Shown piece by piece: positions 5,949-9,108 of a DNA stretch of 32,548 nucleotides. Below the pieces are notes generated by a model. That model was not told the origin of the DNA. It did no database searches and worked only from the letters and a program-made list of their open reading frames with translations. The translations under genes and the position numbers were made by a program. Each line of letters opens with the position of its first letter. Position 1 is the stretch's first letter. This DNA comes from Bacteroidia bacterium (GTDB lineage: Bacteria > Bacteroidota > Bacteroidia > CAILMK01 > JBBDIG01). The stretch spans positions 1 through 32,548 of the forward strand of contig JBBDIG010000025.1 in assembly GCA_040880525.1 (NCBI GenBank). The letters are read 5' to 3'.

Positions 5949-6416
5949 TTAATTTTGTTTCCAGAAATGATCTGGCCAATCCTTGTCTGGATCATGCGTT
6001 TCGTGGGACAGAACGTTCATCAGATATTTTAATTGCTCAGTGGTGGCTTCTAGTTGTATTATATTGAAAAGCTGCCGCTCCTCAAACCGGATGTGTTGCT
6101 CCAGCTCGTTTTCAATAATGGGAATGGTGCGCCCGGGGTCGTCCACGGTGGTGAAGAGCGTCTCAAGGCTCCGATGCTGGCTCAGGGCTGTTTTCACCAG
6201 TGGATGGTCGTTGCCTAATACCGGAAAAACATGCTCTTCTTCTTCCCGGAAATGCGCCCTTAAATGGTTCTCGAAAAAGAAATCCAGATACTTTTTGATG
6301 TCCTTAAATGAAGTGCCGTTCTTAATACCCTGTCTTATTTTAAAGCAAAGCAATAAACCGTGGTGGTGATCACGGCTCAGGGTTTTCAATGCTTCATGTC
6401 GTTTGATTGGTGCCAT
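5949..6416 (-). CDS. hemerythrin-like (HHE) cation-binding protein
   Basis: 155 residues predicted to form a four-helix bundle that binds two irons. Ligand-type motifs are in order: SRDHHHGLL (18-20), ENHLRAHFREEEEHVFPVL, LSQHRSLE and LEQHIRFEERQLF, matching the H-HxxxE-H-HxxxE pattern of hemerythrins. Such proteins bind oxygen or nitric oxide. It is the last gene of a minus-strand run with an NsrR-like regulator, a Ric protein and a 50-residue membrane protein, and starts 11 bases after that small gene, so a role in nitrosative or oxidative stress is likely. No strong terminator is seen between its stop and the array. Confidence 0.93.
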   Translation of the reverse strand: MAPIKRHEALKTLSRDHHHGLLLCFKIRQGIKNGTSFKDIKKYLDFFFENHLRAHFREEEEHVFPVLGNDHPLVKTALSQHRSLETLFTTVDDPGRTIPIIENELEQHIRFEERQLFNIIQLEATTEQLKYLMNVLSHETHDPDKDWPDHFWKQN

Positions 6417-6611: not shown

Positions 6612-7358
6612 TCAACTCGCGGTTTCTGATTCAGCTTCCTGCAATTGTTTTTCTCTGGCTATGGTCTGTGGAAACAAGATGTTGTTCTCTAGATGGATAT
6701 GCAGGTGCAGATCATCCTCAAATTCTTTGAGCAATGCGAAGGTTACGCTATACGTATTGCAGGCATCTTCCGGAGGGTTATAATCATTGCTGAGTTCCGC
6801 GATTTGGCGAAAACGTTCGCCTTCAGTGTCATGCTCGTGCATTATCATCTGAATGGGGTTTTTCACGCTGCCGAAATGAGGCTGCTCCATTCCGGGATTT
6901 GGTTTTCCGGAATTTACCATCTTGCGAATATAAGGGAACAGGATCAGCTCTTCTTTTTTCATGTGTTGCGCCAGTTCTCCGGCTGAGATAGTGAAGAGTT
7001 CGTTGATCTTAAAGAGTTCAGGATGGCGTTCGCCATGAACGCGGCAAAGTTTGTCAAGAAAAGGCTTGATCTCCTGCGTACGCTGCTCCACACACCGGTG
7101 GTGCTTCTTCTCAATGTAGTCGGCCAGCAGGTCCAGCGGCCAGCTTTGAAAATCGGTAACGGATGCATCCGGCTTCTGCATTGCTTCCTGCAGTTCGGTT
7201 ACCAGCATGGTAATGTCCACACCTTTGCGCTCGCAGGCTTCGCTGATCGTACGCCCACCCTGGCAACAAAAGTCAATTTTGTATTTCTTAAATACTGTGG
7301 CGGTTCTGTAATTTTCAGCCACCAGCTCGCCAATCGGTTTATTTTCCATTGCTTTCAT
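6612..7358 (-). CDS. ric: iron-sulfur cluster repair di-iron protein (Ric/ScdA/YtfE family)
   Basis: Restores Fe-S clusters damaged by nitric oxide or peroxide by delivering iron from a di-iron centre. The N-terminal ScdA_N domain has the diagnostic FKKYKIDFCCQGG motif with a Cys pair; the hemerythrin domain follows, with KKHHRCVE, HMKKEELILFP, IMHEHDTEGERF and HIHLENNILFP supplying the His/Glu ligands. The frame is open to 7406, but the codons between 7406 and 7358 run through the palindromic operator at 7376-7399, so ATG 7358 (MKAMENKPIGEL) or 7349 is the better start. About 248 residues, normal for the family. It follows the rrf2 regulator gene and precedes two other membrane/di-iron genes. 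Confidence 0.93.
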   Translation of the reverse strand: MKAMENKPIGELVAENYRTATVFKKYKIDFCCQGGRTISEACERKGVDITMLVTELQEAMQKPDASVTDFQSWPLDLLADYIEKKHHRCVEQRTQEIKPFLDKLCRVHGERHPELFKINELFTISAGELAQHMKKEELILFPYIRKMVNSGKPNPGMEQPHFGSVKNPIQMIMHEHDTEGERFRQIAELSNDYNPPEDACNTYSVTFALLKEFEDDLHLHIHLENNILFPQTIAREKQLQEAESETAS

Positions 7359-7375
7359 AATTTTTAGTATTTTTT

Positions 7376-7399
7376 TATCGGACAATTTTATCCTGATTA
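7376..7399 (-). promoter_or_regulatory. probable Rrf2/NsrR operator upstream of ric
   Basis: The core GGACAATTTTATCC (7380-7393) is an imperfect palindrome (half-sites GGACA and TATCC). The whole 24-bp site matches the one upstream of rrf2 at 20 of 24 positions when read on the other strand, with the same flanks (TAAT..AGGA and TTGTCCGATA). It sits just before the preferred ric start. Confidence 0.7.
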
Positions 7400-7412
7400 G
7401 TTCCAAAAAAAA

Positions 7413-7844
7413 TCACACTTTTAAATAACTCATGCCTTCCTTCAAGCCTTTCGACAGCTCCTCCAAGTTGGTATTGTACATCATTTCAGCGAGCTGTTCG
7501 CGCACCTTGCTAAACTTGAAGTGGACCGGGCAAGGTTTAAGGGAATTACACTGCTCCAGGCCCAGCCCACATTTCGTAAAGACGCCATTTCCATCAATTG
7601 CGATCACGATATGGGCGAGGTTGATTTCCCGGGCAGGAGCAGAAAGCTGAAATCCTCCGGAAGCCCCTTTGCTCGAAAGCAACAGCCCCTCCCTGCTGAG
7701 GATCTGAAGAATCTTGGCCGTAAATGCCACCGGAGAGTTGATCTTCCCCGCAATTTCCTTCAGGCTCACCCACTGGTTTCCTTTAAGGTCCTGCGCAATG
7801 ATGATCATTGCTTTTATGCCGTACTCGCACGCTTTTGAGAACAT
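7413..7844 (-). CDS. Rrf2-family transcriptional regulator, NsrR-like
   Basis: A 143-residue Rrf2 protein: winged helix-turn-helix (SLKEIAGKINSPVAFTAKIL, then the wing SKGASGGFQL) and three cysteines, C92, C99 and C105 (KCGLGLEQC and KPCPVHF), spaced like the Fe-S ligands of NsrR/IscR. NsrR repressors lose their grip on DNA when nitric oxide attacks the cluster. The gene lies directly upstream of ric on the same strand and has a palindromic site overlapping its own promoter, so autoregulation and NO-responsive control of ric are the natural reading. NsrR versus another Rrf2 subgroup cannot be settled by eye, hence no symbol. Confidence 0.92.
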   Translation of the reverse strand: MFSKACEYGIKAMIIIAQDLKGNQWVSLKEIAGKINSPVAFTAKILQILSREGLLLSSKGASGGFQLSAPAREINLAHIVIAIDGNGVFTKCGLGLEQCNSLKPCPVHFKFSKVREQLAEMMYNTNLEELSKGLKEGMSYLKV

Positions 7845-7863
7845 GTTTAATAATTTTCCACTG

Positions 7864-7871
7864 CAAAGATA
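7864..7871 (-). promoter_or_regulatory. -7 promoter box of the rrf2 operon
   Basis: On the minus strand the bases read TATCTTTG, a full match to the Bacteroidota TAnnTTTG box, 20 bases before the rrf2 ATG. The -33 region would fall over the palindrome at 7883-7906, which fits repression by the gene product. Confidence 0.6.
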
Positions 7872-7881
7872 AGAATAATAT

Positions 7882-8052
7882 CTAATTAGGACATATTTGT
7901 CCGATATGAATGGGTTTTGATTGACACATTCTGGCTAAAATATGGTGCAGCCGCAGCGCCTCACGAATCAGTTCGCTCGCATTTTGGTAGGTCCCCTCTT
8001 CAAGCTGCCGGGCAATGTATTTTTTCTGCTTATCAGTAAGACTTACATTCAT
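7882..8052 (-). CDS. short ParD-like antitoxin (orphan, probably truncated)
   Basis: A 56-residue frame starting MNVSLTDKQKKYIARQLEEG and continuing TYQNASELIREALRL, the ribbon-helix-helix domain of ParD-type antitoxins (strand, helix with the G-x-Y-x-x-A-S-E turn, second helix). ParD proteins are usually about 80 residues, the C-terminal half binding the ParE toxin; here the tail is short and unusual (HHILARMCQSKPIHIGQ) because the frame runs into the rrf2 promoter region. No parE follows. It may be a remnant or a stand-alone RHH DNA-binding protein. Confidence 0.65.
   Translation of the reverse strand: MNVSLTDKQKKYIARQLEEGTYQNASELIREALRLHHILARMCQSKPIHIGQICPN
7883..7906 (-). promoter_or_regulatory. 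probable Rrf2/NsrR operator upstream of rrf2
   Basis: The core GGACATATTTGTCC (7889-7902) is a perfect inverted repeat of GGACA/TGTCC with a 4-base spacer. A second copy precedes ric. It overlaps the expected -33 region of the rrf2 promoter and also the last codons of the ParD-like gene. Confidence 0.72.
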
Positions 8053-8210
8053 AATAAATTAATATTGATGTCTAAATTTAACAAACATGGACAAAAATTT
8101 ACGCGAGGTTACGAATGAAAAATGGGCAAGGGATGATATTGTATTCGTATGATCCCGTGTGAAGTTTCATTCAATATTCCGTCTGTTTATTGCTATGTTT
8201 TCCACATAAA

Positions 8211-8222
8211 ATGTGTACACAT
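8211..8222 (+). promoter_or_regulatory. palindromic operator candidate at the RHH antitoxin start
   Basis: ATGTGTACACAT is a perfect 12-bp palindrome ending within the antitoxin start codon (ATG at 8221). RHH antitoxins normally repress their own operon by binding short inverted repeats here. A TATGTTTT sequence (8195-8202), one base from the -7 consensus, precedes it. Confidence 0.5.
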
Positions 8223-8442
8223 GAAAAATGTAACGCTAAGTATGCCTGTAGATTTACTGAGAAAAAGCCGGGAATATGCACGCAGGCACGGAACCACCCT
8301 GAACCAGATGATACGCGATTTGCTGAAGCGTCAGGTTGAAAAAGAGGAATCATCAGTGGCTGATGCCATTATCGAACATGCACAAAAAACCGCTGTAATA
8401 GCGAACTATAAATGGAATCGTGAAAATGCGTATGAAAAATAA
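8221..8442 (+). CDS. ribbon-helix-helix antitoxin of a PIN toxin pair
   Basis: 73 residues from ATG 8221 (MKNVTLSMPVDLLRKSREYA). The RHH fold is clear: N-terminal strand NVTLSMP, helix LLRKSREYARRHG, then TTLNQMIRDLLKRQVEK. The C-terminal part (SVADAIIEHAQKTAVIANYKWNRENAYEK) would wrap the toxin. The frame stays open upstream to 8149, but the Met at 8221 gives the family-like N-terminus and follows a palindrome. The PIN-domain gene that follows overlaps its 3' end and is frameshifted, so this antitoxin now guards a broken partner. Confidence 0.85.
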   Translation: MKNVTLSMPVDLLRKSREYARRHGTTLNQMIRDLLKRQVEKEESSVADAIIEHAQKTAVIANYKWNRENAYEK

Positions 8443-8852
8443 AGTATTCATAGATTCCAATGTGTTTATTTATTTGTTTGTTTGTTTGATAAAAGTGATA
8501 CTCAAAAGCAGGTTAAAAGCGCAAGCCTGCTAAAAAGACTGGAGCAGGAGAATACCATTACTATTTCTACTCAAGTGGTGAAAGAGGTGAGTGCGATTCT
8601 TTTAAAAAAATTCAATTACCCGGTTCAGTACCTTAAGATATTCCTGACATACCTTGACAGTTTCGAAATTGTTGAAACACCCTTTCATTGGTTCAAATTG
8701 CCCTGGATATTATGCTTACCCAGCAGCTTTCAATTTGGGATGCATTAATTGTGGCTGCGGCAAACAGGGCCAACTGCTCTGTATTAATCACCAAGGATTT
8801 AAATCCCGGTCAGCAAATTCTTGGAATGAAGGTGCAGAACCAATTTTCTTGA
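8432..8852 (+). pseudogene. PIN-domain ribonuclease toxin, two frameshifts (VapC-like)
   Basis: Reading across three frames reconstructs a normal PIN protein. Frame one gives MKNKVFIDSNVFIYL (first catalytic Asp), frame two FDKSDTQKQVKSASLLKRLE through VVKEVSAILLKKF (Glu) to FEIVETP, frame three VQIALDIMLTQQLSIWDALI (Asp) and VLITKDLNPGQQ (Asp), ending TGA at 8850-8852. The first break is at four TTTG units (8473-8488); two units would restore the frame exactly. The second is near the CCC at 8680-8682, where one base appears missing. All four PIN acidic residues survive, so decay is recent, reversible at the first site, or in part a sequencing error. Confidence 0.85.
8473..8488 (+). repeat. 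TTTG tetranucleotide repeat, four units, inside the PIN gene
   Basis: Four tandem TTTG units directly after two TTTA units. Unit number sets the reading frame of the PIN toxin gene; slipped-strand mispairing here could switch it. Confidence 0.9.
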
Positions 8853-9108
8853 CTGTTATGCTTATGACATGTTTACTGGTTGCTAAAACTTTCCCATGAA
8901 TTTCCGCACATATTTATCCGGTATCCTTTTCCTTCCGGTAACGCCAATAGTGTTCAATCAGGTCTAACCAAAAATATCCGAAGTAATAAAGATTAATCTT
9001 ATGAAAACAGTTCAAATTAATAACCATACATTTTCTTATATAGAGAGACATCAAACCACAACTAGATGGTAGTTCGTTGCCACAATACGCCCAATATCGT
9101 CAGTGGTT

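Follow-up and report, generated by a model that had tools for sequence, protein, structure and literature searches.

Two palindromes that flank the gene of an Rrf2-family regulator in a Bacteroidia genome are probably operators of the protein encoded between them, which would repress its own gene and the Fe-S repair gene ric behind it until nitric oxide (NO) relieves the repression. The window, i.e., the whole stretch of DNA analyzed here (32,548 nucleotides), comes from a 60-contig genome of 3.80 Mb. Its rrf2 gene (positions 7413 to 7844, minus strand) codes for a 143-residue member of the Rrf2 superfamily (TIGR00738, 91.6 bits for a cut-off of 73.3), whose nearest orthologues in an orthologue search are from Bacteroidota. 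The ric gene (6612 to 7358, minus strand) codes for a di-iron Fe-S repair protein of the RIC/YtfE/ScdA type (TIGR03652, 245.1 bits, cut-off 204.7). Behind ric, a co-directional gene (5949 to 6416, minus strand) codes for a hemerythrin-domain protein of 155 residues (PF01814, 40.9 bits, cut-off 25.3), and tblastn detected a relative of it in 30 of 91 rrf2 loci, our own included.

A long CRISPR array (repeat, ATATCAAATATCTCTCTTTTCAATCAATCCACAAC) comes after a cas1-like gene (848 to 1756) and a cas2-like gene (1746 to 2075), both named by eye; it begins at about position 2800, leaving some 70 bases between it and the end of the hemerythrin gene. At positions 8149 to 8858, a small protein that weakly matches Arc-like repressors (E value of 0.0002) is encoded ahead of what looks by eye like a PIN-type toxin gene, out of frame close to a run of TTTA/TTTG tetranucleotides. 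The two are perhaps a broken or phase-variable toxin-antitoxin pair.

The original prediction placed one site on each side of rrf2, and both the coordinates and the flanks that it gave are correct. The predicted operator of rrf2, O1, is a 26-bp palindrome at 7883 to 7908, upstream of the gene, and the predicted operator O2 lies between rrf2 and ric, at 7374 to 7399; neither is assigned to a strand. When the two are compared on opposite strands, they have the flanks attaGGACATATTTGTCCgata and atcaGGATAAAATTGTCCgata in common. The core GGACA-N4-TGTCC, which had been attributed to both sites, is exact in O1 (GGACATATTTGTCC, 7889 to 7902), but that of O2 (GGACAATTTTATCC, 7380 to 7393) carries one mismatch, in one arm.

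By itself, this short core is uninformative. Allowing for up to two mismatches, it gave 18 matches in the window versus 11.2 ± 3.1 in shuffled sequences. The genome scan that had been proposed as a check returned a single exact match in 3.80 Mb, and up to one mismatch yielded 53 matches versus 129 for a reversed control pattern; GGAYA-N4-TRTCC occurs 13 times, as does its control pattern. As the genome counts did not exceed those of the controls, we dropped the short core alone as proof of operators, and the motif was therefore learned from relatives. The resulting matrix, 26 bp long and worth approximately 24 bits, was built from 131 sites, all in places beside rrf2, in 91 orthologous loci, our own included. 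Eleven of those loci came from a separate rrf2 search; the other 80, the named loci, are the best matches to the Rrf2 protein of the window and hence biased to close relatives. The consensus of the 131 sites is TAWWTMGGAYAAATTTRTCCKAWWTA. With a matrix rebuilt from 129 sites, from which both window sites had been left out, O1 scored 28.0 bits and O2 26.9 bits, while the next place in the window scored 8.9. A sequence-only profile that includes O1 and O2, R1, put O1 first in the genome (21.2 and 19.5 bits on the two strands) and O2 second (18.9 and 18.0 bits), followed by a place within an open frame at 16.1 bits, among the 150 scored of 3831 first-look candidates. Thus, both sites stand far above chance when judged by the 26-bp palindrome learned from orthologues rather than by the short core, and the palindromes are real.

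The protein itself had been called NsrR-like. The NsrR name does not hold, given a score of 32.3 bits against the NsrR equivalog model NF008240, for a cut-off of 182, and a different DNA motif. The IscR equivalog models do not fit either (TIGR02010, 58.5 bits for a cut-off of 207.55; NF008110, 39.4 for 275), and the highest NCBIfam scores below that of the superfamily model are to a SUF regulator and to IscR, both under cut-off. Solved structures offer remote relatives only, the best match (E value of 2e-9) being to an Rrf2 protein that we take to be RsrR, followed by CymR and IscR. The residues Cys92, Cys99, Cys105, and His108 are invariant in an alignment of nine sequences and are, on that alignment, the likely cluster ligands; their codons lie in the Cys92-to-His108 stretch CGLGLEQCNSLKPCPVH (7521 to 7571, minus strand), which gives the predicted ligand pattern C-X6-C-X5-C-X2-H. 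We built a tree of 66 rows from 33 of the 80 named loci, 30 loci of the separate search, the paralogue of our own genome, and two Escherichia coli references. It contains a clade of 56 (support 96/92) that leaves out eight other Bacteroidota Rrf2 proteins as well as E. coli NsrR and IscR; both E. coli rows have long branches, and NsrR is outside the clade, but on a branch of 6.25 changes per column, for which the program warns of long-branch joins. The signature C..G.{2,3}C....PCP.H, present in the window protein, was found in 54 of the 56 clade members and in none of the 10 other rows of the tree. The window member of this PCPxH group also has the operator upstream of its own gene, at 28.0 bits. 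Most likely, these proteins form a distinct Bacteroidota Rrf2 group that resembles NsrR in its action but, by its motif, ligand spacing, and model scores, is not NsrR.

Other members of the family have neighborhoods of their own. The paralogue of our genome (G000:C17:8143-8589, or L207 1644-2090) carries the same Cys signature, and the gene that immediately follows it codes for a tryptophan 2,3-dioxygenase; upstream of the paralogue are a TACCTTTG box and a palindrome of only 10.6 bits. Two loci of Arenibacter and one of Maribacter (L064, L083, and L093) also have this rrf2-dioxygenase order. On an Acinetobacter variabilis plasmid (L136), an Rrf2 protein 45% identical to that of the window is encoded near tet(X3), with a weak palindrome of 9.0 bits upstream. 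This rrf2 gene may have traveled with the resistance gene.

We then counted as conserved any site of at least 10 bits. Such a site precedes rrf2 in 64 of the 80 named loci, with a median center 53 bp before the start codon, and 51 of them have one within 200 bp behind the gene, with a median center 26 bp past the stop. Both standard sites are present in 48 named loci and neither in 13, seven of which have sites before norC, nirK, or ric a few kilobases off in the same locus. Among the 11 other loci, 10 have the upstream site and 6 the site after rrf2 (both, 6; neither, 1). Over the 91 loci (951,280 bases), at least 10 bits are reached at 178 places, just 49 of which are outside both standard places. 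There are 42 extra places of at least 12 bits, 25 of which lie before norC (8), ric (11), or nirK (6). Between the arms of the palindrome, co-variation at pairs 7, 9, 11, and 13 was higher than in any of 500 shuffles; at pairs 1 to 4 and 12, it did not exceed those shuffles. Moreover, the two operators of one genome differ by 6.7, compared with 8.1 between genomes (54 loci; none of 2000 permutations was as low).

The reach of the operator within the group is limited. In the separate search (30 of 53 listed matches), the upstream site was found at 12 of 22 rrf2 genes with the Cys signature and at 0 of 8 without it, a count that is partly in-sample, as 10 of the 12 positives are among the 11 training loci. 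Only two of the other 11 signature-bearing rrf2 genes, which are outside the training set, have the site. Sorted by identity, it was found in 10 of 12 cases at 43% or above and in 2 of 10 below. The operator marks the nearer members of the PCPxH group and is rare in the more distant ones.

According to passages of PMC2483708, promoters of Bacteroidota are marked by TTTG at -33 and TAnnTTTG at -7. For rrf2, the -7 box TATCTTTG (7864 to 7871, minus strand) starts 24 bases right of the center of O1, and the -33 place, TATG (7892 to 7895, minus strand), is inside the right half of O1, so that the site indeed overlaps the -33 region just upstream of the box, as originally predicted. This geometry recurs in relatives: TAnnTTTG begins +20 to +28 from the operator center in 64 of the 74 loci with an upstream operator (0.8% of shuffles), and TTTG occupies the operator center, on the -33 place, in 38 of the 74. 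A dimer on O1 would thus cover the -33 element.

At O2, a candidate -33 TTTG of a ric promoter (7404 to 7407, minus strand) lies 21 bases left of the operator center, an offset found in 27 of 55 loci with O2-type sites (next commonest offset, 7). The -7 region would thus fall under O2. As TAnnTTTG was found near such sites in only 1 of the 55 loci, we put forward a second, weaker ric promoter at O2 as a suggestion only. The same TTTG bears on the start of ric, since the long ric open frame opens at a TTG (7406) that is part of it. The ATG at 7358 is preceded by TAAAAATT; passages of published work propose TAAAA as a Flavobacterium ribosome site. Counted from this ATG, the N-terminal length agrees by eye with that of orthologues such as METLEKITIGEYV. 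ATG 7358 is the likely start of ric, downstream of the first codon of the open frame as had been predicted; the bases of that TTG belong to a TTTG whose offset is kept in 27 of the 55 loci.

A regulon of several operons was not borne out in our own genome, where the profile search (150 of 3831 candidates scored) gave convincing sites at the rrf2-ric operon only. The further candidates were rejected: C24:49198, C55:47024, and C55:61134 are inside open frames, C21:83077 (15.9 weight-matrix bits) is inside an 81-residue frame, C21:144520 (15.1 bits) is weak and lies 39 bp before a 309-residue frame, C19:65855 reaches 6.7 bits before an RND pump-like gene, and C7:25214 is intergenic but has asymmetric flanks. 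In searches for NirK and for the COX1 family, NirK was not found in this genome at 1e-60, and there is a single COX1-family gene. We therefore discarded NorB or NirK of this organism as targets. The operon thus appears to be the whole regulon here, and the link to NO rests on the relatives.

Among the 91 loci, counting sites of at least 11 bits within 260 bp before a gene, we found 74 sites before rrf2 in 70 loci and 49 before ric in 46 loci. Thirteen more precede nirK in 10 loci, although five of them belong to a divergent rrf2 or ric, and 10 in 5 loci precede a gene that we take to be norC and whose product has a cytochrome c match in Pfam. Sites also precede genes for a cbb3-like oxidase (6 loci), qNor (3), a c-type cytochrome (4), and tryptophan 2,3-dioxygenase (3); the remaining downstream genes are mostly single cases, including those of a truncated globin and a Crp/Fnr regulator. 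Of 395 genomes, 60 bear NirK, and we scored the nirK promoters of the best 30, rrf2 neighbors included. At least 8 bits were reached in 15 of 30 promoters versus 5 of 600 shuffles, and at least 14 bits in 5 of 30 versus 0 of 600, in a test that is largely, not wholly, independent, as the training set includes a few sites from between divergently oriented rrf2 and nirK genes. The ric loci of class-level relatives were scored as well (30 genomes with the best ric of each, 30 of 46 matches). A site of at least 10 bits was found in 2 of 19 genomes with the clade versus 0 of 11 without it (Fisher P = 0.52), both positives being training loci (our own and G012), and at 5 bits the counts were 5 of 19 versus 0 of 11 (Fisher P = 0.13). 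Both differences point the expected way but are not significant. Across the class, then, ric is not generally controlled by means of an operator of its own. The NO link of the original prediction holds by comparative genomics only, through the same operator before nirK, norC, qNor, and ric in relatives.

Several of these loci have features of their own. In L079, L110, and L113, rrf2 is clustered by eye with norC-like, ribonucleotide reductase, and nadA-nadB genes, joined by ric in the first two; the cluster of L113 contains one COX1 match. Small hydrophobic proteins of about 100 to 125 residues are encoded behind the operator in L119, L077, L017, L084, and L056, with no match for that of L119 in NCBIfam and Pfam or for that of L084 in Pfam. 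A protein of 483 to 606 residues, beginning near HSFHIPVMGL, follows the operator in two genomes (L058 and G017:C6, i.e., L151), and its L058 copy had no NCBIfam or Pfam match. In four Winogradskyella loci (L097, L114, L116, and L118), an operator of 22 to 25 bits lies 19 bp before the gene of a 132-residue protein, the L114 copy of which had no match in Pfam.

Altogether, the palindromes lie where the operators of the adjacent Rrf2 protein, as originally proposed, should sit, in conserved places before and after rrf2 and across the -33 place. We infer that the window protein binds them as a repressor. A cluster-loaded Rrf2 dimer would sit on each palindrome, that at O1 over the -33 place, repressing rrf2 and the operon behind it, and that at O2 across the -7 region of the putative weaker ric promoter. 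NO, or another insult, would nitrosylate or strip the Fe-S cluster and release the dimer, so that rrf2, ric, and probably the hemerythrin gene would be made until clusters have been repaired. Such relief of repression on attack by NO would provide RIC when clusters need repair.

The signal could also be redox or iron instead of NO. The Rrf2 protein might sense Fe-S supply or redox state in the manner of IscR or RsrR, with ric, nirK, and nor controlled for cluster need or damage. Its C-X6-C-X5-C-X2-H pattern is nearer the C-X5-C-X5-C-X2-H of E. coli IscR than the C-X4-C-X5-C of E. coli NsrR, and a SUF regulator and IscR are the next NCBIfam matches, under cut-off. However, no isc/suf operon was recognized among 38 target clusters inspected by eye, most of them without a family search; one weak neighbor (L120, 11.2 bits) resembles a PaaD/SufT-type protein. 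As the recurring targets are enzymes that make or consume NO, together with ric, we hold this reading to be unlikely. A regulator of another kind, e.g., a Crp/Fnr protein in control of NO genes, might instead bind the palindromes, rrf2 being merely one of its targets. One operator indeed precedes a Crp/Fnr gene (L056), passages of PMC1274295 predict that the FNR-like HcpR controls dnrN, that is, ric, in Bacteroides fragilis, and the site is absent at many distant rrf2 genes of the clade. The consensus is nevertheless unlike the deltaproteobacterial HcpR motifs in those passages, wTGTGAnnnnnnTCACAw and wyTTGACnnnnGTCAArw, while that of B. fragilis may differ. Moreover, 64 of the 80 named loci have the site before rrf2 and none of the 8 rrf2 genes from other groups does, and such presence before a regulator's own gene and absence before those of other groups is the usual mark of self-regulation. 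An outside regulator is thus improbable.

Activation rather than repression from O1 and O2 would be in line with Rrf2 proteins that act both ways, IscR being annotated as a dual regulator. We also give it little credence, because the distance from the O1 center to the -7 box on its right is 20 to 28 bases in 64 of 74 loci and the -33 element is covered, which suits blocking of the polymerase. As for a match between the palindromes by chance or by shared ancestry without function, the short core shows no enrichment genome-wide (53 versus 129 for the control). Yet both places are conserved in many genera amid varying surroundings and the palindrome recurs at nirK; given the nirK test, the left-out matrix scores, and the conservation of the loci, we regard this last reading as refuted.

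The PCPxH group may be the NO switch of much of Bacteroidota, a separate Rrf2 lineage with an operator and a ligand spacing of its own, and organisms such as that of the window, without denitrification genes, may keep a reduced, self-contained rrf2-ric repair module; we find the arguments for this broader view evenly balanced. The group would then control nirK, norC/qNor, a nos-linked cytochrome, and ric, and have in Bacteroidota the role of NsrR, NnrR, and DNR in Proteobacteria. Since the operator is defined and its geometry fixed, the regulon can be read off many genomes by scanning, and a tractable Flavobacterium offers a test of the sensor. The recurrence of the operator at nitrite and NO reductase genes points to a little-studied nitric oxide switch. 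Our literature search, in which most subscription journals were outside the scope so that absence is not proven, brought up no title on this operator or on an NO-Rrf2 regulon of Bacteroidota. Clade II nosZ is carried by Bacteroidota, among others, and passages of a 2018 survey (PMC6264515), confined to gene neighborhood, describe an enrichment of Rrf2 at clade II nos clusters in Bacteroidota fosmids. According to the survey, knowledge of these regulators did not extend beyond Proteobacteria and Firmicutes. The Rrf2 proteins beside these nosZ genes possibly belong to the protein group of the window. On a Tunicatimonas plasmid, we found the order rrf2, ric, two genes, and nosZ, with a 19.9-bit site before rrf2.

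Among known regulators, IscR shares the C-X2-H end of the ligand pattern with the window protein, which however has one more residue between its first two Cys than E. coli IscR. IscR sites are unlike the operator of the window group, among whose targets an isc/suf operon was not recognized by eye. HcpR resembles the present system by its predicted control of ric (dnrN) in B. fragilis, but belongs to the Crp/Fnr family and, in passages of PMC1274295, has different deltaproteobacterial motifs. NsrR is similar in family, in the wing motif Lx3Gx6Gx2GGx2L, which we recognized by eye in the window protein, and in having three Cys. It is probably also similar in its targets, as the ric/dnrN, nirK, and norB genes placed under NsrR in passages of PMC1274295 and PMC9268430 match the kinds of genes found behind the operator in relatives. 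Its DNA site is gATGyAT-N5-ATrCATc in passages of PMC1274295, in contrast with GGAYA-N4-TRTCC for the window group. The Cys spacing is X4-X5 in E. coli NsrR and X6-X5 in the window protein, which is outside the NsrR branch of a tree with long branches. In Streptomyces coelicolor NsrR, the ligands are Cys93, Cys99, Cys105, and Asp8, according to passages of PMC9338935. As NsrR controls the same kinds of genes elsewhere, the Rrf2 protein of the window would work like NsrR, through an operator and a ligand spacing of its own.
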